From Myxococcota bacterium (GTDB lineage: Bacteria; Myxococcota_C; UBA6777): a stretch of DNA of 21,430 nucleotides. Below the pieces are notes generated by a model. It was given only the letters and a program-made list of their open reading frames with translations, was not told the origin of the DNA and did no database searches. The stretch spans positions 1-21,430 of the forward strand of contig JAKLKB010000125.1 in NCBI GenBank assembly GCA_023150835.1. The letters run 5' to 3'. Both the position numbers and the translations under genes were made by a program. Position 1 is the stretch's first letter; each line of letters begins with the position of its first letter. This document shows, in pieces, positions 1,536-21,430 of the stretch.

Positions 1536-1668
1536 ACAGAAGCCCAACGGAGGACAGCAGCCTCTTGCCTAACCACCCAACCTTGTACAAAGACCGGTGG
1601 ACCTCCGCAACGTCACCGACGCTACCACACCCGCTCTGCCTCCACGCAAAGCAAGCGGAGGATTTTTG

Positions 1669-2556
1669 ATGAAAGACCACAGAGAGAAAGACGTCACCCT
1701 CGTCGGCAAATTGCCCGGCGTCCTCCCCAAAGCCAAAAACGCTTGCCTTGTGGTTCTTTACGGCCCAGACCTCGGCAAACGCTACACTCTCCAAGCAGAA
1801 GGACACGCAAACATCGGGCGCTCCGACAAAGCGCAGATCTACGTTGAACGCGACTCTGTCTCTCGAAACCACGCGCAGATCCGAAGTGAAAACGGACAAT
1901 ACATCGCCGAAGACCTCGGAAGCACCAACGGAACCTTTGTGAACGATGCCCAAATCCATACAGCCGTCCCCTTGTCCGACGGCGATCTGATCAAAACGGG
2001 AGAGGTGATCTTTAAATTCCTCAGCCGCGACAACCTCGAAAATGTCTACCACGAAGAACTCTACCGGCTCGCAACCCAAGATGGCCTCACGATGGCCTAT
2101 AACAAACGCTTCTTCCTAGACAACATCGAACGAGAATTCAGCCGCGCCCGTCGTTACCGACGCCATCTCAGTTTGATCCTCATGGACCTTGATCATTTCA
2201 AACAAATTAACGACACCTACGGACACCTCGCGGGAGACTACGTACTCAAAAAAACAGCCCGCCTCATCCAAAGCCATATCCGCCGAGAAGATATCTTCGC
2301 ACGTTACGGCGGCGAAGAATTCGCCCTACTCTTGCCTGAAACAGATCGCCCCCAAGCCCTCGGACTGGCGGAAAAGTTACGACAACTTGTCGCAGGACAA
2401 GACGTGCTTTTTGATCGCTATGCGATCCGAGTCACCCTCAGCTTGGGCGCAGCAACCGCCGACGTCGAAACGGAAAACACACACCAACTTCTCCAAGACG
2501 CTGACGCTTACCTCTACCACGCCAAACGCAGCGGGCGAAACCGTGTTTGCGGATGA
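1669..2556 (+). CDS. FHA domain-containing diguanylate cyclase (GGDEF)
   Basis: Predicted cytoplasmic enzyme of 295 aa that makes cyclic di-GMP from two GTP. An FHA phosphothreonine-binding domain occupies about residues 25-115, with the signature residues GRS (50-52), SRNHA (65-69) and GSTNGTFVN (84-92). A GGDEF domain follows (about 130-292) with DLDHFKQIND, the active-site loop GGEEF (214-218), and the inhibitory I-site RxxD as RRED (205-208), five residues before it. Catalysis and product feedback therefore both look intact. FHA domains usually dock on Ser/Thr-phosphorylated partners, so input from a Hanks-type kinase is a reasonable inference. The ATG at 1669 is chosen because GGAGGA (1657-1662) lies six bases upstream; the frame stays open back to a GTG at 1597 without a comparable ribosome binding site. 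It converges with the epimerase gene across 79 bp. Confidence 0.93.
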   Translation: MKDHREKDVTLVGKLPGVLPKAKNACLVVLYGPDLGKRYTLQAEGHANIGRSDKAQIYVERDSVSRNHAQIRSENGQYIAEDLGSTNGTFVNDAQIHTAVPLSDGDLIKTGEVIFKFLSRDNLENVYHEELYRLATQDGLTMAYNKRFFLDNIEREFSRARRYRRHLSLILMDLDHFKQINDTYGHLAGDYVLKKTARLIQSHIRREDIFARYGGEEFALLLPETDRPQALGLAEKLRQLVAGQDVLFDRYAIRVTLSLGAATADVETENTHQLLQDADAYLYHAKRSGRNRVCG

Positions 2557-2635: not shown

Positions 2636-3613
2636 TCACATCTCCCCCATCCCTTCCTGTAACCATTCCAATGTTCTTGACAGCCCTTCTTCGACGCTGA
2701 CCGTTGGCTGGTATCCCAACAAATGCCGAGCCATCGAGATATCCGCACAAGAATGTTTGATCTCCCCTGCGCGTGCTTCCGCATAACGCAAGCGACTCGG
2801 GGATTCACACAAAGACATCACCAACTCCGCAAGACGCGTAATCGTCACAGCACGCCCTGTTCCCACATTAATCGATTCTCCCCGTGAGACCGGACCAAAA
2901 CAACCTAACAATAGCGCCTGTACGATATCCTCTACAAAAACGAAATCTCTTGTCTGACGGCCATCCCCAAAGATCAACAACTCCTGACCCAGCAACGCAC
3001 GCTGCAAAAACAACGAGATGACCCCAGAATACGGGCTCCTCGGATCTTGGCGCGGCCCAAAAACATTAAAAAAACGCAACGACACCGCTGGGACGGCATA
3101 ATGCAACGCGTAAACGCGCAACCACCCCTCACTGGTTAACTTATTCAACCCGTACGGAGAAAGCGGAAACGTCGGCATATCCTCGCGCATCTGCTCAGCT
3201 TCCAAATCCCCGTAAGTCGCTGCTGACGAGGCAAAAACGATCTTCTTTACACCGCTACAACGGGCAAATTCTAACAACTGCAATGTCGCCACTTGGTTGA
3301 TTTGGATATCTTCAAGCGGCTTCACCAAAGAACGCGGAACAGACGTCTGTGCGGCCAAATGAATGATCCGATCGATCGGTTCGTCTTGTTGTGCCGCAAA
3401 CAAAGACGGCCACAAAGAAGACGTGATATCCGCCTCGATCAAACGAAATCCCAAACCACCTTCGTAACGCAAAAGATTTTCCCGAGAACCCGTCGAAAAA
3501 TTATCGATCACCACCACACGTGCGCCGCGCTCTAACAGAGCCTCCACCACGTGCGAGCCGATAAACCCCGCCCCCCCCGTCACCAACACACGCTCACCCG
3601 CAAGTTCCGACAT
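2636..3613 (-). CDS. NAD-dependent sugar-nucleotide epimerase/dehydratase (extended SDR)
   Basis: Predicted protein of 325 aa in the extended short-chain dehydrogenase family, closest in pattern to UDP-glucose/UDP-GlcNAc 4-epimerases (GalE/WbpP type). The NAD-binding Rossmann motif GGAGFIG is at residues 13-19. The catalytic Ser lies in FASSAATYGD (about 128-136) and the YxxxK pair is YGLNK (154-158). The segments NVFGPRQDP and FGDGRQTRDFVFVED are typical of enzymes that epimerise nucleotide sugars for polysaccharide or O-antigen synthesis. The ATG at 3613 is preferred: AGGAG lies six bases upstream, whereas the in-frame TTG at 3619 would directly abut that site. No other polysaccharide genes are adjacent, so the exact substrate cannot be read from context. 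Confidence 0.9.
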   Translation of the reverse strand: MSELAGERVLVTGGAGFIGSHVVEALLERGARVVVIDNFSTGSRENLLRYEGGLGFRLIEADITSSLWPSLFAAQQDEPIDRIIHLAAQTSVPRSLVKPLEDIQINQVATLQLLEFARCSGVKKIVFASSAATYGDLEAEQMREDMPTFPLSPYGLNKLTSEGWLRVYALHYAVPAVSLRFFNVFGPRQDPRSPYSGVISLFLQRALLGQELLIFGDGRQTRDFVFVEDIVQALLLGCFGPVSRGESINVGTGRAVTITRLAELVMSLCESPSRLRYAEARAGEIKHSCADISMARHLLGYQPTVSVEEGLSRTLEWLQEGMGEM

Positions 3614-3896
3614 CCACAACTCCTTCTTCCACAGCGAAAAAACGTCACGCTCCGCGCAAAGCGGTGATTCAAAAACCCATGCGGAAAAGGCGCAAACGGC
3701 ACGTCAAATCAAGCTTTTCCAACCATCCAAAACGCTGGGACACCGCTCAAAAAGCTCCGCCATACTAGCGCAACCCACCACCCCCACGCAAAACATTCCT
3801 CTTTGTCCACAACAACCCGCGTCGAAAACAGCCCATACATCGGACGTTCCCTCTTCCCCCAAACCGCCTTAACCCCCAACACAACCACCTATCCCC
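3614..3896. other. Intergenic region, little structure
   Basis: This 283-bp gap lies between two minus-strand genes. It must hold the end of the large lipoprotein transcript and the control region of the epimerase, but I find no convincing intrinsic terminator and only weak promoter-like hexamers. The sole structure noted is a 7-bp inverted repeat on the minus strand (GGAAAAG with CTTTTCC, about 24 bp apart) near 3680-3725. Confidence 0.5.
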
Positions 3897-6086
3897 TCAA
3901 GAAGGCGTATGGATATGCAACATCTCACCATTTTTCACAAAAAGCGTTCCTTGAAAGATCGCAGAACCATCCACATGGACAAACTTGTCCCCCACAACCG
4001 TTTTGTTGATCGACAAAAACCCTAGAGGCTTGAGCGTTTCAGCATCCCGAACCTCAATACCCGAATGAAACAACACAAAGAGTTTCTTGCGATCCTTGGA
4101 AAGCCCCATCGCATGGCCCAAAGCACGCGTTCGGACTTGAGCCTTCGCTGCGGCAAGGCTCAAGGGTACACGCACCAACAAAGCGGCTTTCGCGCTGTAC
4201 ACCAACAACGCCTGCTGATCGGGCGTAAACAACAAGCCGTAGGGGGTCTTTGGAATCGGCTTCTGCAACGTCTTGCCCGTCACCGTATCCACGACGATCA
4301 CATGCCCCTGTTGATTCGGTAATTCCGTGTATTCCGCCAAGGCGATCTTGGCCATCCCTTCGCTCGCAACGATCCGCTCTAGGCGATACTGATGTTGAAA
4401 ACGTGCGATAATCTGGCGATCTCCAGAAGGCCACTTGATCCCCAAAAGCGCCTTGCGTTGGGGTTGATCGGCAGGAAGCCTACAATCATCTTGGTAGCCT
4501 TCCTCGCGCAACAGCAACAAACGGCTGCTTGGTTGATCAAACCCCACAACACGGAACTGACGGTGGCATCCAGAGGACACCAACGAAAGATGACCCGTAA
4601 TGACGTTATTGCGAACGTCCCAATGCAAGTACACCGTACGCTTGCGGCCTTGTAGTTGCGCTGTTTGCGGCAGGTGTAGCAACAAACCACCGACACCTCG
4701 ATCCAGATCAAGATGCGCGACTTCCAGATCGCCCGAAGCCTTGCGAATCCCTCGGAACCACGGATGCAATGAACGATGCTTTAACAAATAGTCTCGGATC
4801 GGCGGCTTTAACGTCACCAATCGTTTACGCGGCGTGTACCACACCGAGACCGAGCGATCCGAGCAAAAAGCCTCCGTGTAACGCCCCGTCATCCCGAGCA
4901 ATACAGTGTTTTTTGATGCGCCGATCGCTCGGATCTGTTCCGAAAGACCATGCCGATAACGCTGCACATCTACCCGACCAAAGCGCGTTTGAATATGGGC
5001 TTGATCTGTAAAACGCGGCGCGGCCACAGGATTGTACTTGGTGCGTTCTTGCGCACAATGCGCCTTCCATCCCGCCAACACAGCATCCCCGTCAACGGAC
5101 GGAGACACGTAAGAAGGCTCCACAGGCTGCATCGATGTCATGCCTGCTCCGTTCGGTGGTTGCACAGTTCCCTGAAGAGACGGACCCATCGGAGGCACAA
5201 CAGACGGTGCGTGTGGCGGTTGGACCAGAGAAGGTGTTGCAGACGGATACACTCGATTTGAGGGACTCAACGATGCTGTTGCACGTTGATAGCGACGGGG
5301 TTGGACGACAGAGGGCGTCGCAGGAGCATACCCACGCGGACGCACAGACGAAGCCGTCGCAGAGAGATAAGCACGCGGGTTGGCGTGAGGCAAAGCGTCC
5401 GGTGAGGGCTGTGGTGCGACCTCGTGGCCTTGCGCCAACGCACCATAACGATGCAGTCGTTGTTGCAAACGTGCCTTCCGCGCCAAGACGAAGCGCAATG
5501 CCCCTTGGTATCGGAGCATCACAGAAAGATGTTGTTGTGCGCGTTGGGCATAAGCAGCCTGCTCGCCCTGTTCGAGAGAATCGGCGTGTTGTCGGTAACT
5601 TTGGTACAAACGCCGATGCGATCGGATCGCAAGACGATATGCCCGCTCTTTCCGAGACAATTGAGCCATCACCCGATGAATCTGCGCCGCACGCAACTTC
5701 CATTGAAACCGCTGATGCTCGCGGTTGACTTGCCTCTGATGCTCGTGGCGCAATGCCCGATCCGCATCACTTTGTTCTTGATCGTCGCGCCACTTCGGAT
5801 CGCTCTGTCCGCCCGGATATCGGCGATCGACTCCATACGGCTGTTGCGGTGTGTGCATCGAATACGCACCGTGTGCTGGTTGGTGTGGAGAGGGACGCGA
5901 TGGATCGACTTGACCATAGCGCCCTTGCGTCGGTTGTAAACGACGCCCCCATGTCGGTTGCGCTTCGTCTGCGGGAGGCCCTTGCCGATACACCACAGAG
6001 CCTTCTTGATGACCCACACAGCCCGAAACCAACAGGCCAAACATCAAGACCATCATCCCTTTTGTTGCGTTGTGTGTTCTGTCCAT
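3897..6086 (-). CDS. Large lipoprotein with helical, repeat and C-terminal propeller-like regions
   Basis: Predicted protein of 729 aa, function not recognised. The chosen ATG gives a lipoprotein signal peptide ending in the lipobox LVSGC, with Cys23 as the lipidation site; an AGGGG lies about 10 bases upstream. The frame is open further upstream to 6230, but that extension reads as non-coding and would bury the signal peptide. After the lipobox comes a Gln/Pro-rich segment (25-100), then a strongly charged helical, probably coiled-coil region (about 100-215). Four imperfect repeats of 13-14 residues follow, of the form Y..AT.S...P.R (about 240-290), and then a Pro-rich linker to about 330. 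The C-terminal 400 residues are rich in short beta strands (for example GHVIVVDTVTGKTLQKPIPK, TPYGLLFTPDQQALLVYS) and look like WD40/YVTN-type propeller blades, ending in LHIHTPS. Probably envelope-anchored. A sigma-54-like site lies upstream. Confidence 0.8.
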   Translation of the reverse strand: MDRTHNATKGMMVLMFGLLVSGCVGHQEGSVVYRQGPPADEAQPTWGRRLQPTQGRYGQVDPSRPSPHQPAHGAYSMHTPQQPYGVDRRYPGGQSDPKWRDDQEQSDADRALRHEHQRQVNREHQRFQWKLRAAQIHRVMAQLSRKERAYRLAIRSHRRLYQSYRQHADSLEQGEQAAYAQRAQQHLSVMLRYQGALRFVLARKARLQQRLHRYGALAQGHEVAPQPSPDALPHANPRAYLSATASSVRPRGYAPATPSVVQPRRYQRATASLSPSNRVYPSATPSLVQPPHAPSVVPPMGPSLQGTVQPPNGAGMTSMQPVEPSYVSPSVDGDAVLAGWKAHCAQERTKYNPVAAPRFTDQAHIQTRFGRVDVQRYRHGLSEQIRAIGASKNTVLLGMTGRYTEAFCSDRSVSVWYTPRKRLVTLKPPIRDYLLKHRSLHPWFRGIRKASGDLEVAHLDLDRGVGGLLLHLPQTAQLQGRKRTVYLHWDVRNNVITGHLSLVSSGCHRQFRVVGFDQPSSRLLLLREEGYQDDCRLPADQPQRKALLGIKWPSGDRQIIARFQHQYRLERIVASEGMAKIALAEYTELPNQQGHVIVVDTVTGKTLQKPIPKTPYGLLFTPDQQALLVYSAKAALLVRVPLSLAAAKAQVRTRALGHAMGLSKDRKKLFVLFHSGIEVRDAETLKPLGFLSINKTVVGDKFVHVDGSAIFQGTLFVKNGEMLHIHTPS

Positions 6087-6181
6087 GGCTGATGCCCCTG
6101 CGTGTTTGTATTTGAAATGTTCCCCCGCACAACGATAGACCCCGCGCAAGGTTACAGTTCTGTTTGAAAAAGATCGCGCCC

Positions 6182-6196
6182 GCAAAGAATATGCCA
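6182..6196 (-). promoter_or_regulatory. Probable sigma-54 (RpoN) promoter
   Basis: On the minus strand the bases read TGGCATATTCTTTGC. This matches the -24/-12 consensus TGGCACG-N4-TTGC at nine of eleven defined positions, with the invariant GG and GC exactly 12 bases apart. Transcription would start near 6170, giving a leader of about 84 nt for the lipoprotein gene starting at 6086. Sigma-54 promoters need an enhancer-binding activator, and such activators are abundant in Myxococcota. Confidence 0.55.
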
Positions 6197-6197
6197 C

Positions 6198-6214
6198 CCC
6201 AAGATACTCTTGGG
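6198..6214. repeat. Short perfect palindrome next to the sigma-54 site
   Basis: cccaaga (6198-6204) and tcttggg (6208-6214) form a perfect 7-bp inverted repeat around a 3-base centre. It lies two bases upstream of the -24 element of the sigma-54-like promoter. Its closeness suggests a protein-binding site, although activators usually bind farther upstream. Confidence 0.4.
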
Positions 6215-6412
6215 CTGATTGCAAAGACAAGCCCCTACCTTTTCAGCAAAAAGAACCCCGGTCCGGCGTCACCCGAGCTTTTGCGATGGTTCATGTCGCC
6301 GCTGCTTTAAGGTATGGCCTGCCCTCCCCTACCCCGCCCTTTGACATCAAGAAGCCGCTACTCCACCCCCTGCTTTGCTCACGGAGTATTCTTGCTCCAT
6401 CGAACACGGTGC

Positions 6413-7594
6413 TTAGACTGCGCGCTCGACGATCAAAGCGACCGCCTCTCCGCCCCCAAGACACAACGTCGCAAGCCCTCGGCGCAAGCCCCGCTGCTCT
6501 AGCGCAGACAACAACGTCACCAAAACACGCGCCCCACTCGCCCCGATCGGATGACCCAAAGCGATCGCGCCACCGTTCACGTTCACACGCTCCTCGGACA
6601 ATTCCAACTCTTTCATCACCGCCAACGTGCTCGATGCAAACGCTTCGTTGACCTCGTAGAGATCGATATCACCTCGCGAGAGACCTGCTTTTTTCAACAC
6701 TTTGGGGATCGATTTGATCGGCGCGACCAACACATCATGCGGCTCGATACCCGCCGAAGCTTGCGCTCCAACACGCCCCAATACCCGCAATCCGTGCTTC
6801 TCAGCATAAGCCCGCGACACCACCACCAACGCCGCCGCACCATCCGATATCTTCGAAGCATTGGCCGCTGTCACCGTACCATCCTTCTTAAACACCGCAC
6901 GCAACGACGCCATCTTCTCCAACGGAGATGCACGCACCGCCTCATCGTCCAAAAAGGCCAACGCTTCGCCTTTTTTTTGCGGGATCATCACAGGCATCCG
7001 TTCTGCATCAAAGCGCCCCGACCGCACCGACGCCAACGCCCGCTCATAAGAACGAAACGCATAAGCATCCTGCTCCTCTCTCGACACGCCGAACTTTTCG
7101 GCCACAAGATCCGCTGTATAACCCATGTGGAAGTCGTTGTTCACATCCCACAAACCATCGCGGATCATCGCATCCCACATCTCACCATGCCCCATCCGAT
7201 AGCCCGTTCGCGCCTTCGGCAAAAGATATGGCGCTTGTGACATCACCTCCATCCCTCCCGCCACCACCACTTCCGCATCACCACAAGCGACCGCTTGCGC
7301 AGCCAACATCACCGCCTTCAATCCCGAACCACACACCTTATTCACCGTGATCGCGCCCACTTCGTACGGCAAAGCCGCTTTTAAGACCGCTTGACGCGCA
7401 GGATTCTGACCCAAACCATGCGGCAGCACATTTCCCATGATCACTTCATCGACCTGATCAGGCCCAACACCCGCACGCTTCAGCGCCTCCACGATCACCA
7501 ACCCCCCCAGTTCCGTCGCCGTAAAACCAGAAAGCCCCCCCTGAAAATTCCCTATCGCCGTTCTCACCGCACCAACGATCACAACCTCACGCAT
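6413..7594 (-). CDS. atoB: Acetyl-CoA C-acetyltransferase (thiolase)
   Basis: Predicted 393-aa thiolase that condenses two acetyl-CoA to acetoacetyl-CoA, or runs in reverse during breakdown of acetoacetyl-CoA. The nucleophilic Cys88 is in NKVCGSGLKA. EVNEAFA is at about 314-320, the catalytic His348 is in NGGAIALGHPIGASG (340-354), and the second Cys378 is in ATLCLGGGEAVA. These positions match the catalytic set of the short-chain PhaA/AtoB/ThlA class almost exactly, and the length is typical. The ATG at 7594 is chosen because GGAG lies seven bases upstream and the protein then begins with the family-typical REVVIVGAVRTAIG. The gene lies 137 bp after the large fibrinogen-like gene on the same strand, and a small zinc-ribbon-like frame overlaps its start. 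The symbol is family-level; phaA or thlA would be equally defensible. Confidence 0.95.
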   Translation of the reverse strand: MREVVIVGAVRTAIGNFQGGLSGFTATELGGLVIVEALKRAGVGPDQVDEVIMGNVLPHGLGQNPARQAVLKAALPYEVGAITVNKVCGSGLKAVMLAAQAVACGDAEVVVAGGMEVMSQAPYLLPKARTGYRMGHGEMWDAMIRDGLWDVNNDFHMGYTADLVAEKFGVSREEQDAYAFRSYERALASVRSGRFDAERMPVMIPQKKGEALAFLDDEAVRASPLEKMASLRAVFKKDGTVTAANASKISDGAAALVVVSRAYAEKHGLRVLGRVGAQASAGIEPHDVLVAPIKSIPKVLKKAGLSRGDIDLYEVNEAFASSTLAVMKELELSEERVNVNGGAIALGHPIGASGARVLVTLLSALEQRGLRRGLATLCLGGGEAVALIVERAV

Positions 7595-7688
7595 ACGCCT
7601 TCTCCCTTCGTCGTCCGATCCGCACCCCGCAACGGGCGGATACATCGCCTTGCTCGATCTGCACCCAACAACGGGCACACAAAAACAA
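7587..7688 (-). CDS. Possible degenerate zinc-ribbon microprotein
   Basis: A frame of about 33 codons ends inside the first codons of the thiolase gene. It reads LCARCWVQIEQGD followed by VSARCGVRIG, resembling the short zinc ribbons with pattern CxxCGxxIxxGxxFCxxCGxxI. The third Cys is replaced by Ser, the first knuckle Gly by Trp, and the spacer is one residue short. The two halves are also an imperfect DNA direct repeat (about 7655-7679 and 7625-7649). The start is uncertain: TTG at 7688 or 7715, neither with a good ribosome binding site, and the frame is open much further upstream inside the neighbouring gene. It may be a real leader-type gene, a decayed one, or a gene altered by a sequencing error. 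Low confidence as a CDS. Confidence 0.3.
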   Translation of the reverse strand: MFLCARCWVQIEQGDVSARCGVRIGRRREKAYA

Positions 7689-7731
7689 ACGACGGTTATC
7701 ACGACGACGCCCCAAAAAACAAGACGCCCTC

Positions 7732-10700
7732 TCATCGCACCCAGAGGTACGCAAACCCCTTGATCTTTTTGTCCCCATTATCGGGCGCTGCCGACCCTGC
7801 CGTTGACGCAAAATTGCCCACCACAAAATTGGCATCCGCAGATCCTCCCAAAAAGATCGCCGAATCCACCGAACCACAATCAAATTGCTCGTTCCCCAAC
7901 CAAGCGATCCGCGCCCATCCAACGACCCCTCCCGCAAGACCTCCCCCAGCCAGCACGTTGTAAGCTTCTCGCGCACAATTCCGCTGCAACGAAGCATCCG
8001 GCAACATCGCCCTCCAAGCATCACGCCCTGCCCACTCATCAAACGAAACGCTCGTCCCTCCGACTTCGACTCCGCCTAGCGTACTCGATATCATCTCATA
8101 CATCGACGCCATCGGCTTCGACAAGATCACGCGCTTGAGCTGCGCATCCACCTGTCCCAAGGCAGGTTCGCTGATCGGTTGATCGTACGGGTGCATCCCG
8201 ATCAACAAATGCGTGTACGCTACCGCATGATAACTCTGCAACTTCGCTTCTTTGTCTGGGAGGATCTTGATATCTTCTTCGTTCAGCGTGATAAGGTCGG
8301 TCCATCCGGGATTTGTCGCATAATAACCAAATCGACTTGCGGCCCCGCCTTGGTTGTGCCCGACCTTCATAATCAAGGTCCACCCGCCTCCATCGTAATC
8401 CATCTCGCAATGCACCCGAAAAGCCTTTGCGATCGGCTTGTGAACAGAGGACGGATGGATCCAATAAAACCCTGTTTTGGGCGGAGTGTTGGGGTCGTAA
8501 AACGAGGTGTTGCGGTAGGCAAGACAACTCGCCTCGATCGTTCCATCTGCGCGGACATATCCGCCATCTGCATCTTTCGTTGGATCCTTTATGGTCGAAA
8601 GATCCGCCCCAACATATTGAAAACCTTGGCGTGTGCCGCTTTCGGTGCCGAACACCTCGCGCACCGAAACAAAGGCCATCCGAGCATGGCGCTTGTACGC
8701 CAAGACTCCCGATACATCGGGACCTGCGTTGCCTGCGTAGGCTTTGTCTCCTTTGTAATCAGCTTCAAACTTCGGGCCGATCCCTACGAATCCATCGGGC
8801 TGATCACAAGTACTCGCGCCTGCCAATAAACCGATCCGCACAGCTTCGATGGCTTGGGCTTTTCCACCTCCATCGCGCTTTACACAAAACCCTTGACGAT
8901 TGCACAACGCCCGCAGATACGGGATCTCTCCACTCGCCAACGATACGCTGCTTTCCCACGATTGCCTTTCCGAACTGCTCGCCAAGAATCCACCTTGCGC
9001 ATTGAACGGTGCCACCGCGCCCGATGCTCCAGAACAATCCAACAGCGCAGCACGCAAGGAAGCTCCACGCTGCCAAAGAAGGTGTTCGGTAGACGGAGGA
9101 AAGGCCCCACTTAACTTGGTCGGATCGATCGGATCAAACGGCATCATCTGAAGCAAGACCGATCCAAAAGGCAACACATCGTACGCAATCAAGCGCGCTG
9201 CTTGGGCGTCTGGAAGAACAAGATCACGCTTCAAACGCCCCCGACCTCCCGGACCGAGCGCAGGAGTCGTACAGAAAAACCGTGACAATCGCGTACTGGC
9301 CTCCGCATCACAATGCGTCCAGATCTCGTTTTCAAACGACCATTTCTCGTCACGCCCATCGATCTTCAACGCCAGACTCCAGCCCCCGCCTCGCTTCGTC
9401 ATCTGGCAATACACCTTCACAGGCCCTTCCGCCCCGGGTGGCTGGATCCAATACAGGCCGTCGTTGCGCGGCAAACTCTCTTGATGGTACAACCGCCCCA
9501 AATAACCCGCACAACTCATCGGATACGTCCCATCCAACCAGCGATACACGCGATCAACATCTTGTACCAGCAACGCTCGCGCAGGAAGCAGCCTTACATA
9601 CACCCACGCAAAGCCCGGATTCACCGCATCTTTGTTTTTGACTTGCGCCGCTGTTCCTTCATGTTCAGGAACCCCCGTCGCAAAGTTCCCACTCGTCACC
9701 ACCGCCCCGCCACCCGACGAAGCATACGGAACCACCTGCGCCCCCACGCCGAGGAATGAATGCCCTGCGATGCTCGTGCAACCGTACTCACTCCACACGA
9801 TCCCCAAGCGCAACGCACGAACCATCGAGCTTGTCGGGTATGTATTCGTGGCGATGTTGATGCCTTGCCACAAACACGAAGATGGCGCGGTGTGATACGT
9901 CGCCTTGGGCAACAAGCCCAACCACGCACTCGAACGCTCTTCTCTCTGAACCGGCAGATAACGCTCTTGTGAGATCAACCTTCGCAGAGAATTGCCTCGG
10001 TACCCCATAACGAGATTGCCGACTTTTCCGACTGGATCGTTGGCATCTCGCATCTTCAGCATCACCTGAGACAAAGGGATCGAGCCATACGTCCCAAACA
10101 GCGCCTCTTTTGCACTCTCATCCAAACTATCTTCATTCAACCCGCCTTGCGAGGACAACCAATACGGCGAATCATACGCAAAAGTCGGATACCGCCCATC
10201 TGCCTTGAGGACCAACGTCCATCCCCCGCCTTGGGTCGTCATCTCGCAATAAGCCAAGCTCGGAGCATCCGCTGCTGTCGGCTTGATCGCATACACTCCG
10301 TCGTCTGTAGAAGCGCGATAAAATCGTGAAGGCGGATAACGGTATCCCATGCAGCTTGACGCAACACTTCCATCGCTCCAACGCCTCGCACTCACGGGAG
10401 ATTGTGTATAGACGACTGCTTTTTGAATGCACTCACCTTGAACGCATTGTGCGTCAGCACCGCAGTCTGGATCGATCAAACAGCTTGCACAGACCCCACC
10501 TTTACACGCTTGACCTTGCGGACAATGCGAAGACTTGGCGCATACCTGACACAGATTGCCGATACAGTAAGGCTTGGTCGCGTCCCGCACCTGACAATGT
10601 TGATCCGTCTCACAAGCCACACAACGCGACGAAGACAGCGAACAGATCTTTGGATCGTTCGGATCTTTCGCACAATCCGCATCCGCTTTGCACTCGATAC

Positions 10701-11508
10701 ATCGGCCTTTCTCACAACGCTTGCTTGCACAATCCGCATCACGCAAACAAGCCACACACGCGCCCTGATCGCAAAACAGACCCGATCCACAATCCACATC
10801 CGCAAGACACGGCGAACACGATCGATGGATGCAGGCCAAAGGAGCCGTACAATCGGCTGTTTTCAAACAAACCACGCAACGGCTTGCTTGACGATCACAA
10901 AAAGGTGTCGTCGGATTGCGCCCAACCTTGGTACAGTCGGCATCTTCGCGGCATGGAACACAACGTTTTTGATAACAAATCGGCTCGTGTGGTTTGCAGT
11001 CCGTATGAAGCAAACACTCCACGCACTCTCCTTGGCTTTGGCCCGCCTCTGTGTTGCAAAAAAACCCAGAAAAGCAATCCTCGTTCTTGCGGCATCCGAG
11101 CGATGGATCGGGAGGATTCGACGATTCGGACGGCGGAAGCTCTGTGCCTTCGGGGGGCTGCGTTGTTTCTTTCGAGCCATCGGGAAGTTGAGCAGGTTCC
11201 TCCGAACCGTCAGGCGGTTGGGTGAGGTCGGGAGGAGACTCATCCCCAGCATCGGACTCAATGATATTGTTTTTTTCTCCGTTGGTTTCGCGTTTTTCGT
11301 CCGAAGTGCTCTCGCCGATTACTGCATTCTCTCGGTTGGCCTGAGCACGCGCAAACGGCACACAGACCGAACGCTCACACAAAAACGCCCCGATCGGTCG
11401 ACAATCTCCATCGTTTCGACAAAACCACGTGTCGACAGGGGCCGGATCTCCGTTGCAGCCCCCTTGACCGAACCAAAGCAAGCCGAACAAAAGCCAAACA
11501 CGCCGCAT
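7732..11508 (-). CDS. Cys-rich surface lipoprotein with three fibrinogen-like GGGWT domains
   Basis: Predicted protein of 1258 aa with an N-terminal hydrophobic signal and a probable lipobox GQGGC (Cys18). A first short Cys cluster is at 30-49, then a Ser/Thr/Pro/Glu-rich linker (about 60-137) containing the PPDGSEE / LPDGSKE repeats. From about 139 to 360 come about nine Cys-rich repeats of the form C...DADC....C..G.C..C, like those widespread in Myxococcota secreted proteins. Three fibrinogen-like domains follow at about 375-640, 655-950 and 985-1258. Each has DG.Y.I.P, then YC.MT..GGGW(T/S)L.LK (the third has HCEMDYDGGGWTL) and ends in a strand such as AWVYVR or AYLWVR. Such domains often bind sugars or act as adhesins, but the ligand is unknown here. 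The ATG has GAGAGG five bases upstream. The gene starts 23 bp after its paralogue ends, so they are probably co-transcribed. Confidence 0.9.
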   Translation of the reverse strand: MRRVWLLFGLLWFGQGGCNGDPAPVDTWFCRNDGDCRPIGAFLCERSVCVPFARAQANRENAVIGESTSDEKRETNGEKNNIIESDAGDESPPDLTQPPDGSEEPAQLPDGSKETTQPPEGTELPPSESSNPPDPSLGCRKNEDCFSGFFCNTEAGQSQGECVECLLHTDCKPHEPICYQKRCVPCREDADCTKVGRNPTTPFCDRQASRCVVCLKTADCTAPLACIHRSCSPCLADVDCGSGLFCDQGACVACLRDADCASKRCEKGRCIECKADADCAKDPNDPKICSLSSSRCVACETDQHCQVRDATKPYCIGNLCQVCAKSSHCPQGQACKGGVCASCLIDPDCGADAQCVQGECIQKAVVYTQSPVSARRWSDGSVASSCMGYRYPPSRFYRASTDDGVYAIKPTAADAPSLAYCEMTTQGGGWTLVLKADGRYPTFAYDSPYWLSSQGGLNEDSLDESAKEALFGTYGSIPLSQVMLKMRDANDPVGKVGNLVMGYRGNSLRRLISQERYLPVQREERSSAWLGLLPKATYHTAPSSCLWQGINIATNTYPTSSMVRALRLGIVWSEYGCTSIAGHSFLGVGAQVVPYASSGGGAVVTSGNFATGVPEHEGTAAQVKNKDAVNPGFAWVYVRLLPARALLVQDVDRVYRWLDGTYPMSCAGYLGRLYHQESLPRNDGLYWIQPPGAEGPVKVYCQMTKRGGGWSLALKIDGRDEKWSFENEIWTHCDAEASTRLSRFFCTTPALGPGGRGRLKRDLVLPDAQAARLIAYDVLPFGSVLLQMMPFDPIDPTKLSGAFPPSTEHLLWQRGASLRAALLDCSGASGAVAPFNAQGGFLASSSERQSWESSVSLASGEIPYLRALCNRQGFCVKRDGGGKAQAIEAVRIGLLAGASTCDQPDGFVGIGPKFEADYKGDKAYAGNAGPDVSGVLAYKRHARMAFVSVREVFGTESGTRQGFQYVGADLSTIKDPTKDADGGYVRADGTIEASCLAYRNTSFYDPNTPPKTGFYWIHPSSVHKPIAKAFRVHCEMDYDGGGWTLIMKVGHNQGGAASRFGYYATNPGWTDLITLNEEDIKILPDKEAKLQSYHAVAYTHLLIGMHPYDQPISEPALGQVDAQLKRVILSKPMASMYEMISSTLGGVEVGGTSVSFDEWAGRDAWRAMLPDASLQRNCAREAYNVLAGGGLAGGVVGWARIAWLGNEQFDCGSVDSAIFLGGSADANFVVGNFASTAGSAAPDNGDKKIKGFAYLWVR

Positions 11509-11531
11509 CGTCGCCTCTCTTTCGTGGTGCG

Positions 11532-13370
11532 TTAACGGACAAACAAATAACCCATTCGCTTTCGAGCGTTGTCTTTGAAGGCTTCGATCCGATCCGATCC
11601 AACAAACCCGTTGACTCCTAAGGCATCGTTCGCACCGATCCCGATAAAGGATTGGGGACCAACACCATAGTTAGAACAACCTTGTCGCGGCGAACCTAAG
11701 ATCCCAAAACGCACCCGAATCCCAGAGTAATTATTCAAGAGATTCTTGTCTCCGTGAGCGTTAAACGCCTCTCGATGACACTCCCCTTGCAAGACACCGT
11801 TGGGCAACAACAACTGCCAGCCCAACTGCGTAGGGAGAGGCGGATCAAAGCCGATACTTCGGCCTTGTTGCATCAAGGATCGAAAAGACGAAGCACTTTT
11901 GCTAACCGAAAGATAGAGACGCGGCGCACCCGCTTTGATCTCCGAAAAAGCCAGCAACACCGATTGAAAAGGAACTGTCGAAAAGCTCGCAAGCTTGGCC
12001 TCGTTGAGATCCAGTTGCAGATCAGGTGCGTTATGAACCGCTGCGTCAGTCCACAACGCAGCGTCGTACACAAAGGTTTTTCGACTCCCATCCGCTTTTA
12101 AGATCAACGTCCATCCACCGCCCTTTTCGGTCATCAAACAATACACCGCAAACGGTGTCGTGCTTGCTGCGGGCTTGATCCAATACACACCGTCTGTTTT
12201 TGATTCGATATATCCGGGCTTTCCGTTAAAGTACTCCTGACAAGAGATCGCATACCCGCCGTCCTGCCAGCGGTTTCCTGTGATGCTTCCGTTTTGGAAG
12301 GAGGCGATCTGTATTTGGCAACGACCCACTTGGGTATCGCACTTGACGCCGCTGCACTGCGCGTCTGCTGTACATCCCGTGCAGCGGCCTCCCGCACACA
12401 ACAAACCGCTCAGACAATCCTTGTTTTCCGCGCACTCGGCCTTTTGACACACTTTGTTGACGCAGTTTTTGTCAGAGCCACAATCTTTGTCTTCGGTGCA
12501 AAAGTCGCAGCGCCCGTTGATACAGAGCAAACCATTGACACAATCCGTCGCTTGCTTGCATTGCGGCGTACTGCACACGCCTTGGCGACAGATGTCCCCG
12601 TTCGAGCAGTCCGCATCTTTCGCACAAGCCAGACAACGCCCCGCCACACACAACCGCCCCGTTGGACAAAGCGTTGCGGGATCTTGATCGTCACAAACCA
12701 CACACAGATCGTCTCGGCATATCGTGTCCAAGGGACAATCCCCGTCGTTTTGACAAGACACAGCCTTGCACGATCCGTTGCTTTGACAGGCCGCTGCTGG
12801 CGAGCAGGGCTTTTTTGTCGTGCAAGGTTCGCAACCTTCGTCGATCTGCCCGTTGCAATTATTGTCCAAACCATCGCCACAAACCTCGTCAGGTTTGCAT
12901 GAAAGAACACGCTCTGGTGTGGTTCCTTCGGGTAGTGCGTCTGGATCGGCTTCTGAAGCAACGTCGCTCCCTCCCTCCAAAACAGGCTCCACGAGATGTT
13001 CAGGTAGTTCCACGTCAACAGGGGACTCCGTTGTTGCATCCATGGTCTTTTCCGACGCGCTTTCCGCTTCGGGAGATGATTCAGGCGGAGATTCGGAAGC
13101 ATCGGTCGTTTCGTTGCCTTGCGTATTCGACGCAAGACAAAGACCCGCCGCACATCGCGTATCTTTCGGACAATCGGTATCATTGGAGCACAACGCCCGC
13201 GATCCGTTAGGAAGGCGCAAAGCCCCCGTCGGTTCGCAAGCCACAACAGCCAGCATCCAACCAACCGCCGCTCCCCACAAGGCACCCCACAAAAGACGCC
13301 GAAGAACGAGGAAAAAGCTCCCTTGGGTTGCCCCAGAGGATCGAGGGTTTTGTGTTTGCATCTTTACCAT
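11532..13370 (-). CDS. Cys-rich lipoprotein with MopE motif and one fibrinogen-like domain
   Basis: Predicted protein of about 612 aa, paralogous to the downstream 1258-aa protein. A hydrophobic segment (about 19-44) ends in the lipobox AVVAC (Cys45). An acidic Ser/Glu/Pro-rich linker follows (about 80-155). The sequence CGDGLDNNCNGQIDEGC (164-180) is a MopE-type putative metal-binding motif. Cys-rich repeats occupy about 182-352 (for example CAKDADCSNGDICRQGVC). One fibrinogen-like domain covers about 365-612, with DGVYWIKP, YCLMTEKGGGWTLILKADG (410-428) and the end MGYLFVR. The start is uncertain: ATG at 13370 follows a weak GGGA, and in-frame ATGs at 13361 and 13403 are alternatives. Any of these keeps the signal and lipobox. 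Likely exported and anchored in the outer membrane; partner and ligand unknown. Confidence 0.9.
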   Translation of the reverse strand: MVKMQTQNPRSSGATQGSFFLVLRRLLWGALWGAAVGWMLAVVACEPTGALRLPNGSRALCSNDTDCPKDTRCAAGLCLASNTQGNETTDASESPPESSPEAESASEKTMDATTESPVDVELPEHLVEPVLEGGSDVASEADPDALPEGTTPERVLSCKPDEVCGDGLDNNCNGQIDEGCEPCTTKKPCSPAAACQSNGSCKAVSCQNDGDCPLDTICRDDLCVVCDDQDPATLCPTGRLCVAGRCLACAKDADCSNGDICRQGVCSTPQCKQATDCVNGLLCINGRCDFCTEDKDCGSDKNCVNKVCQKAECAENKDCLSGLLCAGGRCTGCTADAQCSGVKCDTQVGRCQIQIASFQNGSITGNRWQDGGYAISCQEYFNGKPGYIESKTDGVYWIKPAASTTPFAVYCLMTEKGGGWTLILKADGSRKTFVYDAALWTDAAVHNAPDLQLDLNEAKLASFSTVPFQSVLLAFSEIKAGAPRLYLSVSKSASSFRSLMQQGRSIGFDPPLPTQLGWQLLLPNGVLQGECHREAFNAHGDKNLLNNYSGIRVRFGILGSPRQGCSNYGVGPQSFIGIGANDALGVNGFVGSDRIEAFKDNARKRMGYLFVR

Positions 13371-13428
13371 CTTGTTCCCATCTACAAAAGTGCTTGAAAA
13401 CATCCGTCAAATCGGAGAAAAAAGCCGA

Positions 13429-13673: not shown

Positions 13674-16133
13674 TTATCGAAAGATCTCCAACGCCATCAT
13701 CGCATGAGGATGTAAAAAGCGAATGAAGATCAGAAAGCCAAACAGCGAAGCCGCCACAAGAAACGAAGCCACACCGATCTTTGCGATCTGATCGCTGCGC
13801 ATCGGTGGCGCGTGCAAGATCATCCGCAACCGCCGAAGTTCGATCTCTTCCATCTCAAAAAATTGCGGTGCGCTGCGTTCACCGAAGTTGATGCCCGTAA
13901 TCCCCTTCAAAAGCAGCGTATCATAGGGGGTGATCGTTTCATGTCCACGCAACAACGCCATCTTGTCTGCACGCCGCCGAGCCATAAACTCCTTAAAAAA
14001 CTCTGCAACGCCGATCATCGCGAGCAGATACAACAAGATCAATTCATGAGCCAACGCAAACACCACCGTCAGCGCAAGCACCGCGATCACAGCGACAAAT
14101 CCCCAAGCAGAGCGCAACGAACACGCTACTGCATGAAGGATACGCCCCCCATCCAGCGGATGCACCGGCATCAAGTTCAGCAAGTTGATCAGCGCTCCCC
14201 AGATCGCAACAGCCAAAAAGAAATCCGCAGGATACACCGCATAAGCCAACAAACACAAAAAGGTTAAGATCGACCCCCACAACGGCCCCGCCAGATTCAC
14301 CCGCGCTTGCGCGTACCAAGAGGGCCAAACATCGTCCGTCACCGTCGCAGCCCCAAAGAACGGGATCAAAAACACCCCCCGTATCTGCATCCCTTCGCGT
14401 TGCATCGCCCAAACATGCCCCAGTTCGTGGAAGATCAAGATCACACACAACAACAACGCAAACTCCCAGCGAAAGAAGACGGCATAAATCCCCAAAGATA
14501 CGCCTGCATAAGCGGGCTTGATGCTTTTTAAAAGCAGTTTCATCCCCGTCGGCAAAAAAGACAAAAAGCCAAAAAAGAGCTTCATCATAAAGGCCCATAT
14601 CCCAAGCCAGACTTGTGTTGAGGCCGAACGTTCGGGCTTTACCGTCGGAGGCTGATCTGCAACCGCTTGCTCTACTTCTGCACGCACACGAAAACGCAAA
14701 CGCGCCAAATCAGGAGTCCGCTCACTTGGCCCGATCTGCTGGATGATCAACGCCAACAGCAGATCAGCATCGCGCATATCGACGATCGGATAGGGCGGAT
14801 CGCCAAAAGACACATGACGCCGCATCCCAAACAGAAAATTACCAAAGTTCGCAAAACAAAACTCGTCCCCACGCGCCGTCACAACACGCGCATAACACAG
14901 CGGATACGGCTTAAAAAACGCCTCGACTGCATGAAGATGCACCGCGTCGACTTCTGACCAAGGCACATACAAAACCCGCAGCTCATCCTCGTACACGATC
15001 CCCACATCATCCAACGTCACACGCCGCCGATAATACGGGAAAAAATAGAAGATCAAACAAGCCAACACGCCCAACAATGTGTGCAAGCCAAGTGTCCACT
15101 GGATCGGCCTCAACGCAGTCCAGCGTTGCGCCATCCAAAAAGTTAACGGAGCCGTAAAAAGCAAACCCAACACAAGTTGCACCAAAAAACGCCGATAGTT
15201 CGCGTGAAACGTCACAGGGCGACCAAAAACCCCCAAGCGCTCCGACCGCACCGCCTCCCCAACAACCTCCTCATCCCGCGACAAAAAGATCGCAAGCTGT
15301 TGCTCGCCTTCTTGCGCGCCCAACGCTTCGCTTTCTGACTCCCCCTCTTCTTCATCCAAACCAAACAGCACTTCTTTCGACAACAAAGCTCTTGGAGACT
15401 TCGGCCCTTCAAGTTCTCCAAAGATCTCCACCTCCGCGATCTCTTTTGGCGAAGCGCTCTGCCGCACGTTTTCTTCCACTTTTTCTTCCGAGACTTCAAC
15501 AGCCAAAGGCTCCCGTACGACCTGCTCTCCCCCTCCACTTCCTCCCAGATGTTCGCCCTCTTCTGCTTTTGCTACCAACAAAGAAACCGCATCTTCCACC
15601 CCCACCGAGACTTGTACATCCTCGACACCGCCGATTTCACCAATGCCCGATGCTCCAGCGCTCTCACCGATACCCGATGTCCCGCCGACTCCAACGATGC
15701 TCGATACTCCGAGAAGCTCCACAGCGTCGGAAGATTGCGCCGGAAAAAAGAAGTCCTCTTCGTTTAAGAGATCGCCTTCGATCTCAGAAAAAAAAGACAT
15801 CTCCAACGCCTCGGGAGATAGGTCTTCTTCGTTGTTTTTGTCCTGCTCACCTGCCGTTGCACCGTGCTGCTCCGACCACGCAAAAAAAGCTTCTTCTAAC
15901 TCCGAAGAAGCCAACGAAGCCGCTGCTACGCCTTGTTGAACGCTCTCGACAACGGTCTGCTCTGCCTCTTCAACAACGCTCCCTTGTGTCCCGACAACGG
16001 CGCTGTCTTCCGCTCCTTCCATGACGCTCCCCTGCGTCCCTACGATGGCGCTCTCTTGCGTTCCTTCGAGGATGCTTTGTGATCGCAACGACAACAACGG
16101 ATTGGGATCTTTGATGGCATCCGAAGCGGCCAC
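13674..16133 (-). CDS. Site-2 protease-like M50 intramembrane metalloprotease with long acidic N-terminus
   Basis: Predicted 819-aa membrane protein. Zinc-ligand motif HELGH is at 569-573 within a transmembrane helix, and the partner motif NLMPVHPLDGGR (about 653-664) supplies the Asp ligand; together they define peptidase family M50. Helices also flank this core at about 318-335, 347-366, 545-566, 620-655, 676-708 and 786-806. The first 300 residues are acidic and low in complexity, with imperfect repeats around VGTQGSV (about 29-55) and a Gly/Ser/Val stretch (140-180), and are probably cytoplasmic and disordered. After a two-helix hairpin, residues about 372-465 (RVTLDDVGIVYEDELRVLYVPWSEVDAVHL) resemble a bacterial PH-like fold. 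Site-2 proteases release membrane-bound regulators; no substrate is obvious nearby. The GTG start is set by a perfect AGGAGG five bases upstream; the overlapping ATG is in another frame. Confidence 0.88.
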   Translation of the reverse strand: MAASDAIKDPNPLLSLRSQSILEGTQESAIVGTQGSVMEGAEDSAVVGTQGSVVEEAEQTVVESVQQGVAAASLASSELEEAFFAWSEQHGATAGEQDKNNEEDLSPEALEMSFFSEIEGDLLNEEDFFFPAQSSDAVELLGVSSIVGVGGTSGIGESAGASGIGEIGGVEDVQVSVGVEDAVSLLVAKAEEGEHLGGSGGGEQVVREPLAVEVSEEKVEENVRQSASPKEIAEVEIFGELEGPKSPRALLSKEVLFGLDEEEGESESEALGAQEGEQQLAIFLSRDEEVVGEAVRSERLGVFGRPVTFHANYRRFLVQLVLGLLFTAPLTFWMAQRWTALRPIQWTLGLHTLLGVLACLIFYFFPYYRRRVTLDDVGIVYEDELRVLYVPWSEVDAVHLHAVEAFFKPYPLCYARVVTARGDEFCFANFGNFLFGMRRHVSFGDPPYPIVDMRDADLLLALIIQQIGPSERTPDLARLRFRVRAEVEQAVADQPPTVKPERSASTQVWLGIWAFMMKLFFGFLSFLPTGMKLLLKSIKPAYAGVSLGIYAVFFRWEFALLLCVILIFHELGHVWAMQREGMQIRGVFLIPFFGAATVTDDVWPSWYAQARVNLAGPLWGSILTFLCLLAYAVYPADFFLAVAIWGALINLLNLMPVHPLDGGRILHAVACSLRSAWGFVAVIAVLALTVVFALAHELILLYLLAMIGVAEFFKEFMARRRADKMALLRGHETITPYDTLLLKGITGINFGERSAPQFFEMEEIELRRLRMILHAPPMRSDQIAKIGVASFLVAASLFGFLIFIRFLHPHAMMALEIFR

Positions 16134-19902: not shown

Positions 19903-19936
19903 CTTCAACGCACGATTTCTAAAATCGTGCTTGAAG
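19903..19936. repeat. 15-bp-arm palindrome in a divergent intergenic region
   Basis: cttcaa plus gcacgattt (19903-19908 and 19910-19918, one bulged C at 19909) is the reverse complement of aaatcgtgcttgaag (19922-19936), with a 3-base centre cta. The inner nine base pairs are perfect. It lies 12 bases upstream of the -35 box of the 82-aa gene and about 100 bases upstream of the promoter candidate for the opposite gene. It could be an operator or a stable hairpin; it lacks a T-run. Confidence 0.8.
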
Positions 19937-20133: not shown

Positions 20134-21430
20134 ATGGAGCAAATCAAGATCCTCGATCAACTCTCGCGAGACGAGTTGTACTCGATCTACCAGTTTTTAC
20201 TCCTTGAATCGCGATCCCCCGCCGAGACCCCACGCAACGCTTCCAAAAGCGTCATGCTCGAAACCCTCGGACAGGTCATGACCACCGAAGAAGCCCGCTA
20301 TTGCGTCGACTTCTTTGAAAATTATGAATACTACGCTGTTCCTGTCCTCAAAACCGAGATGATCGATGCCCTCCCCGATGATCTCCTTCAGGCCCTCTTT
20401 GCGATCTATCTCGACGACGATATCCTCCCCGAAGAACACCTCGATCTCGTCGATGCTCTCGGACAATCCCAATTCTTCCTCAAAGAAGATGCCCGCAAAT
20501 TTTACCTCTGGTACTACTATTTCCGCGAACGCATCCCCATCGAACAAGACAGCCCTCAAGAGCAAACCATCCTTGTTTCGGGTTCTTTTTCTTCGAGCAG
20601 CTACGATGAAGCCGCCCATACCCAACGCATGGCGGGCTTCTCTTCGACCGATCTGCCGTCCTTTGAAACAGACGAAGCCCAAGAAACACAACGCCTCCAA
20701 GGATTTCCTGCCCGCCAAGCCGACGAATACGCCGCCGCCCTCGCTGGCGAGGATTCTCGATCTCCCTCAGCCCCAAACGCCATCGATGAAGATGCTCTCG
20801 ATGAAGATGCTCTCGATGAAGATGCTCTCGATGAAGATGCTCTCGATGAAGATGCTCTCGATGAAGATGCTCTCGGTGAAGACGATCTCGATGAAAACAG
20901 CGATAACTTCGACGAGAGCGACGCTTCCGTCTCCTCTCCTTTTTCGAGCGCGTCACTCGATGCCACACGCATCGCTCCTCCGCCCCCTCCGCCCGAGGCT
21001 TTTCAACGAACACCTTCCGCGATCCAGCCTCTGCCCTTTCCGTCTCTTACCCCGAATCCATCGGAAGCAAAAACAATAAGTCAGCCTGCGCAACGCCCCG
21101 ATATCCCGCCTTCTATGCGCACCATCGAACTCGATGTCCTCGATCTGGAAAATTACACCAACGATGCCTCTCCAAAACAAGGCGCTCCCACCCAAGATAT
21201 CCGGGATCAACTCAAACAAAGAGCGCGTACCAGTCCTCCGCCTCCCCCGCCTCCTCCACCCAACGAAGAGATCGAAGAACTCGATCCCGAAGCACTCATC
21301 GAAGAACCCGACTCCACAGACTTTCGAAACGAAGAAACACAACCTCTTCAACGCCCCCAACCGAATCGGCCTCCACAAGCAAACATCCCCCCCACAAAAC
21401 CACCCCCACAAAGCGGCCCACAAACACAAA
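20134..21430 (+). CDS. Large acidic, proline-rich protein with DEDAL repeats (3' end outside window)
   Basis: Open for 432 codons to the last base of the window without a stop, so it is a partial gene; family not recognised. Residues 1 to about 150 look folded and helical (MEQIKILDQLSRDELYSIYQ, then DALPDDLLQALFAIYLDDD and KFYLWYYYFRERIP). From about 150 the protein becomes low in complexity: acidic, with six exact DEDAL pentapeptides plus one variant (218-252), then Ser-rich, then poly-proline tracts (APPPPPPE near 284 and PPPPPPPP near 370) alternating with Glu-rich stretches. Such tails act as flexible arms or docking sites for SH3-, GYF- or similar domains; that role is inferred. The ATG lacks a good ribosome binding site. 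An in-frame GTG at 19927 is an alternative. Codon third positions strongly favour C, as in neighbouring genes. Confidence 0.75.
   Translation, partial: MEQIKILDQLSRDELYSIYQFLLLESRSPAETPRNASKSVMLETLGQVMTTEEARYCVDFFENYEYYAVPVLKTEMIDALPDDLLQALFAIYLDDDILPEEHLDLVDALGQSQFFLKEDARKFYLWYYYFRERIPIEQDSPQEQTILVSGSFSSSSYDEAAHTQRMAGFSSTDLPSFETDEAQETQRLQGFPARQADEYAAALAGEDSRSPSAPNAIDEDALDEDALDEDALDEDALDEDALDEDALGEDDLDENSDNFDESDASVSSPFSSASLDATRIAPPPPPPEAFQRTPSAIQPLPFPSLTPNPSEAKTISQPAQRPDIPPSMRTIELDVLDLENYTNDASPKQGAPTQDIRDQLKQRARTSPPPPPPPPPNEEIEELDPEALIEEPDSTDFRNEETQPLQRPQPNRPPQANIPPTKPPPQSGPQTQ
20785..20889 (+). repeat. 15-bp coding minisatellite (DEDAL pentapeptide)
   Basis: Six identical copies of gatgaagatgctctc run head to tail from 20785 to 20874, followed by a diverged seventh copy (20875-20889, GEDDL) and a partial eighth. 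The unit is a multiple of three, so copy-number change would lengthen or shorten the protein without shifting the frame. Identity at the DNA level implies recent expansion or ongoing homogenisation. Confidence 0.95.

Follow-up and report, generated by a model that had tools for sequence, protein, structure and literature searches.

A tandem pair of putative Myxococcota envelope lipoproteins with predicted intelectin-like GGGWT heads on Cys-rich stalks

The two adjacent genes described here encode new members of a widespread, uncharacterized bacterial family, and their GGGWT heads are predicted to adopt the fold of the animal intelectins. We favor, with moderate confidence, a reading in which both products are exported envelope lipoproteins carrying intelectin-like heads on disulfide stalks, gene 1 being the resident of the locus and gene 2 a three-headed relative of two-headed proteins, and in which the pair probably acts as glycan receptors or adhesins. 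Homology, predicted fold, conserved residues, selection and synteny are supported by the present analysis. The bacterial GGGWT family has so far been annotated by a motif of 46 residues only and called fibrinogen-like; if the intelectin-type fold is true, the family becomes a testable set of Ca-dependent glycan receptors. Such a fold would also bear on the origin of the animal intelectins, which a study of a lamprey lectin approached with motif counts only (PMC9682848). The pair itself, in which one head keeps a putative site and three have partly lost it, lends itself to comparing how a site changes while selection continues.

The locus and its two GGGWT genes

The window, a stretch of 21,430 nucleotides, is contig 65 of a genome of 7.56 Mb in 239 contigs (G000), and the features of interest are collected in Table 1. 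The phylum-level group was sampled through the genomes of five species (G000-G004), among which G001 represents a congener and G003 another genus. A sequence-only reading had described two adjacent minus-strand paralogues with one and three GGGWT domains, and this layout was borne out by the open reading frames, the short gap between them and the NCBIfam matches. The GGGW motif stands at residue 417 of the gene 1 protein and at residues 427, 707 and 1040 of the gene 2 protein. The frame of gene 1 is open further upstream (11532-13403, minus strand), giving 623 residues from its first ATG and 612 from the ATG at 13370.

Table 1. Features of the locus, with positions in the window
Feature	Position	Strand	Basis or remark
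Gene 1, single-head GGGWT putative lipoprotein, 612 aa	11532..13370	-	Open ORF; orthologues in G001 (89% identity) and, by synteny, in G003
Gene 1 signal peptide, ending in lipobox VVAC (putative lipid Cys = residue 45)	13236..13370	-	Sequence
Gene 1 Cys-rich stalk, 36 Cys in 200 aa, starting with CKPDEVCGDGLDNNCNGQIDEGC	12309..12908	-	Weak DUF7107/Dickkopf_N matches
Domain A, predicted intelectin-like GGGWT domain (gene 1)	11535..12308	-	NCBIfam match; model pLDDT 89.6; Z 15.6 to human intelectin-1
Gap of 23 bp with purine-rich, Shine-Dalgarno-like GAAAGAGAGG ahead of gene 2	11509..11531	-	Sequence
Gene 2, three-head GGGWT protein, 1258 aa	7732..11508	-	Open ORF; G001 orthologue, 90% identity
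Gene 2 signal peptide, ending in atypical lipobox GQGGC (Cys 18)	11455..11508	-	Sequence; conserved in G001
Gene 2 N-terminal Cys cluster and acidic Ser/Pro/Thr-rich linker	11104..11454	-	Sequence; fastest-evolving part, dN/dS 0.28
Gene 2 Cys-rich stalk, 40 Cys in 229 aa	10417..11103	-	Partial similarity to TraA Cys region, E 8.9e-5
Domain D1 (gene 2)	9583..10416	-	Groups with first domains of two-domain paralogues
Domain D2 (gene 2), most diverged, with insertions, 8 Cys	8629..9582	-	Alignment, tree
Domain D3 (gene 2), all three conserved putative site residues present	7735..8577	-	Model pLDDT 85.6; Z 16.3 to Xenopus XEEL
M50-family membrane peptidase gene, upstream	13674..16133	-	Adjoins one-head gene in G001 and G003 too
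Thiolase gene, downstream	6413..7594	-	98% identical in G001, 70% in G003

The gap between the two genes is equally long in G001. Within the 303 bp ahead of gene 1 a promoter scan detected no site, and its promoter counts were those of shuffled sequences, so the only support for co-transcription of the two genes is the 23-bp gap. On the downstream side the thiolase frame is open to an ATG at 7735 (6413-7735, minus strand), overlapping the gene 2 stop, and the upstream extension (MRGRLVFWGVVVITVVCFCVPVVGC) resembles a lipoprotein signal; the thiolase itself probably starts at 7594. Elsewhere in the window, positions 1597-2556 (plus strand) encode a protein resembling an FHA domain followed by a GGDEF domain, a relative of which (71% identical) adjoins the thiolase gene in G003. 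A run of DEDAL repeats (DEDALDEDALDEDAL...) lies at about 20780-20880 (plus strand), inside an open frame starting at 19927, and the encoded protein has a relative near the M50 gene in G003.

GGGWT heads and their predicted fold

Each of the four domains matches NCBIfam GGGWT_bact (NF040941) with 43-52 bits, against a curated cut-off of 30. The alignment of the four, which the sequence-only reading had proposed, confirmed that they are homologous along about 250 residues, with pairwise identities of 29-36%; with alignment Z-scores of 22-43 over shuffled sequences, this homology is not due to chance. The likeness to fibrinogen is of a more restricted kind. The whole proteins and the isolated domains A and D1 pass the 22-bit cut-off of Pfam Fibrinogen_C (PF00147, 221 positions), at positions 13-57 only, and the isolated D2 and D3 score below it. 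The Pfam family was therefore rejected as a full-domain assignment, the match spanning about the first fifth of the profile only. A family alignment and profile built from 81 bacterial GGGWT domains displays a second conserved half behind the GGGWT half, marked by LQxxCNxEGFN, RVRIGIxxN...DC, PDSxxGxGG, GNxA and a final R.

When this 81-domain profile was compared with the PDB, intelectins came first (5.9e-14 to 4.6e-11), ahead of the best fibrinogen (7.1e-9). Identity to intelectins is about 14%, and the sequence similarity is significant along the first ~100 residues only. AlphaFold2 gave confident models of domains A and D3. Aligned with VIA-align, the model of domain A has human intelectin-1 as its nearest structure (rmsd 3.5 A, 215 residues), and that of D3 has Xenopus XEEL (rmsd 3.4 A, 227 residues); the intelectin superpositions of both models range overall over rmsd 3.4-3.7 A and 209-231 residues. 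Ficolin, fibrinogen and tachylectin chains reach Z-scores of at most 10.0 with the A model and 8.5 with the D3 model. Foldseek TM-scores of the models to intelectins are below 0.5, hardly above the score to a ficolin. On the strength of these models, the A and D3 heads are predicted to share the intelectin fold, rather than the fibrinogen/ficolin fold, across nearly the whole domain. The sequence-only reading had called the domains fibrinogen-like and looked to modelling for that fold: the description holds for the first 60-100 residues and the heads are indeed fibrinogen-related, but when the domain is taken in full, intelectins are the closest solved folds, with Z-scores far above those to fibrinogen and ficolins.

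A partly conserved candidate site in heads under purifying selection

Intelectins are X-type, Ca-dependent lectins of animal immunity. Their surface Ca ion binds two exocyclic hydroxyls of microbial sugars (PMC8185196). In the lamprey lectin, Glu262, Glu281, Glu293 and Asp279 form Ca site 1, and Asp150 and Asp301 hold a second Ca (PMC9682848). In the bacterial heads, N206, D219 and N233 (domain A numbering) fall in stretches matching the intelectin Ca site, with an uncertain register to ITLN1 in a global alignment of low confidence. Allowing N/D, D/E and N/D at the three positions, this trio is present in 62 of 77 other domains. It is intact in D3 and partly replaced in A (S/Q/N), D1 (S/H/N) and D2 (G/D/N). 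By hhalign the first Cys pair aligns with that of intelectin, and C211 aligns with ITLN1 C259 in a weak part of the alignment. The residue numbers of the ITLN1 query agree with the segments of the PDB profile matches. Global hhalign identified no counterparts of the ITLN1 ligand-box residues Trp288 and Tyr297 in the bacterial domains, at low confidence, and residue-level mapping of the sugar box by this route was rejected on that account.

Between G000 and G001 the dN/dS values of the heads are 0.07 for D3, 0.09 for A, 0.13 for D2 and 0.16 for D1, and 0.28-0.33 for the N-terminal parts with linkers. The purifying selection on each head argues that all four are maintained, and the head with the best-kept putative site (D3) is also the most constrained. 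The specialization proposed from sequence is thereby supported, in that A, D1 and D2 have lost conserved putative site residues and D3 has not. The same reading had singled out D3 as the odd domain for its HCEMDYDGGGW, which was not borne out: His occupies that column in 8 of the 81 domains, so the motif is ordinary variation, and the domain combines the best-kept site with the lowest dN/dS.

Angiopoietins and tenascins are members of the fibrinogen-related superfamily in which the fold is kept and the sugar site is dead. The heads may likewise be protein-interaction or structural modules instead of lectins, as might be expected from three of four domains that are without part of the conserved putative site and yet are under purifying selection. 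We regard this as doubtful, for the site pattern is present in D3 and in 62 of 77 relatives and the nearest folds belong to the Ca-dependent lectin branch.

Export and stalks

Lipoboxes were judged by eye, without a signal-peptide predictor, and the claim of a shared lipobox fared unevenly: that of the gene 1 protein (VVAC) is good, that of the gene 2 protein (QGGC) atypical. The hydrophobic signal of the paralogues ends in a conserved Cys, which in several of them follows non-canonical residues. The Cys-rich repeats and acidic linkers noticed earlier in both proteins proved real on inspection of the sequences, the repeats of the stalks being spaced at about C-x2-C-x5-C-x5-C-x4. The DNNCNG string that had been read as a MopE motif does occur. 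A Pfam scan of the isolated stalk at a maximum E of 10, with filters that drop weak short matches, listed no MopE family. Beyond the lipobox Cys there are 44 Cys in the gene 1 protein and 60 in the gene 2 protein, and the heads A, D1, D2 and D3 contain 4, 4, 8 and 4, respectively. All of these counts, for the proteins as for the single domains, are even, which agrees with complete disulfide pairing outside the cytoplasm.

It is conceivable, though in our judgment unlikely, that the proteins are not exposed at the surface but secreted or located in the periplasm, with for example a role in the matrix or in envelope maintenance. The atypical lipobox of gene 2 and the non-canonical residues of several paralogues would agree with such a location. 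The conservation of the Cys itself speaks against it, as does the stalk-head layout, which lends itself to presentation at the surface, as has been proposed for TraA (PMC3325183).

Possible roles in relation to known systems

For both proteins we infer lipidation, surface exposure, binding of Ca and of glycans, and a biological role, and it is plausible that they are adhesins or glycan receptors. After export, each would be anchored by lipidation at its N-terminal Cys. An acidic low-complexity spacer, followed by the disulfide-rich repeat stalk, would then carry the C-terminal heads, one in gene 1 and three in gene 2. Facing outward, the heads would bind to glycans or glycoconjugates belonging to prey, kin or matrix. 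D3 at least may bind via a Ca site like that of the intelectins, and A, D1 and D2 may have shifted in specificity or act as spacers or as heads for protein binding.

All four domains exceed the cut-off of NF040941, described as fibrinogen-like YCDxxxxGGGW domain-containing proteins. Its model spans 46 residues only, against a domain of ~250 residues here, which includes the C-terminal CxxEGFN...RIGI..N...C..PDS.IGxGG half and is predicted to have an intelectin-like fold. The intelectins (ITLN1, 4wmq/6usc; XEEL, 4wmo/5zc0; lamprey serum lectin, 7e1e) provide both the nearest predicted fold and the best PDB profile matches, yet they differ from the bacterial heads in sequence, the second half being without a confident alignment. 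They are also secreted oligomers lacking a Cys-rich stalk or lipid anchor, unlike the stalked proteins described here. Ficolins, fibrinogen C domains, tachylectin 5A and FIBCD1 have the N-terminal GGGWT half in common with the heads, but their structural scores are clearly lower (Z of 10 or less).

A different kind of likeness is found in TraA, the outer membrane exchange receptor of Myxococcus xanthus, which has a PA14 lectin-like head and Cys-rich repeats thought to form a surface stalk (PMC3325183). The pair resembles it in placing a lectin-like head on Cys-rich repeats and in a weak NCBIfam match in the Cys region. This match amounts to 21.3 bits, in the Cys region only, against an NCBIfam cut-off of 750. 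Pfam and NCBIfam scans of the pair gave no match to PA14 or MYXO-CTERM, and an N-terminal lipobox stands in place of the MYXO-CTERM of TraA. By analogy, the pair may work like TraA without being a member of its family.

Bacteria have been reported to possess motifs 8 and 9 of the intelectin domain, a proposed "prototype" (PMC9682848). That proposal concerns a motif count only, and the present analysis adds whole domains, models and a Myxococcota-wide family. In the limited collection of literature consulted, nothing else was on point for bacterial fibrinogen-like or GGGWT proteins, and other reports may exist. As a tentative extension, for which the balance of our expectation is somewhat unfavorable, a large and hitherto unrecognized bacterial branch of X-type (intelectin-fold) lectins may consist of stalked, lipid-anchored surface receptors in Myxococcota and relatives, expanded and diversified in this phylum-level group for cell-cell or prey recognition and sharing a common ancestor with the animal intelectins.

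Evolutionary history of the pair

The GGGWT family occurs in all five genomes of the phylum-level group, with 9-18 full or partial matches each. In a sample of 188 genomes from the Nannocystis phylum, by comparison, 42 have strong matches (1-5 each). Among 84 related proteins from named genomes, 70 have one head, 12 have two and two have three; one of the latter is the gene 2 orthologue in G001, the other has a fragmentary third copy. A Cys-rich region lies ahead of the domain in 56 of the 81 relatives with enough upstream sequence. The stalk-head layout is thus a theme of the family, and three full heads are rare.

In G001 the gene order is M50, gene 1, gene 2, thiolase. In G003 a single one-head gene of 684 aa stands between the M50 and thiolase genes, about 50 bp ahead of the latter, and gene 2 is absent. 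Since the same neighbors enclose a one-head gene there, gene 1 is most likely the older resident of the site. Gene 2 most likely arrived later, before the split of G000 and G001; its loss in G003 is a less simple alternative. The neighbors of the M50 gene differ in G002 and G004, where it precedes genes that by eye resemble lolCE, lolD, bamA and skp (and lysS in G002), which are lipoprotein-sorting and outer-membrane assembly genes.

The sequence-only reading had explained the four domains by duplication. In a simple local form of this, gene 1 would have been copied to give gene 2 and its domain triplicated internally before divergence. The adjacency of the genes, the same order of their parts, the identity among the four domains and the absence of gene 2 from G003 would all agree with this. 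A single clade of A, D1, D2, D3 and the syntenic G003 domain is rejected (AU p 0.006), as is one of D1-D3 alone (p 0.026); when D2 is omitted the one-clade test gives p 0.10, neither rejecting nor favoring it. Moreover, D1 clusters with first domains from two-domain paralogues at a support of 97/98, D3 lies on the other side of the split, and only gene 1 is syntenic in G003. Simple local duplication is thus not favored, and we consider it improbable. Our preference is to derive gene 2 from a two-headed member of the family that acquired a further head in the middle and would have come to this site in the lineage of the genus. It remains a preference because D2 forms a very long branch and the supports elsewhere in the tree are modest. 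Scoring with HMMs of first-type and second-type domains did not assign A, D2 and D3 to either type, the scores being too similar.

Other GGGWT genes were observed along the way. Contig 209 of G000 carries a second local pair at 2687-8253, consisting of two tandem two-headed genes (open frames of 985 and 804 aa). At 3395-5757 of contig 23 of the same genome, a two-headed gene is split over two frames around Ns, probably at an assembly gap. Myxobacterial-type GGGWT genes also appear on contigs labelled as a Klebsiella pneumoniae MAG, which are probably mislabelled or misbinned.
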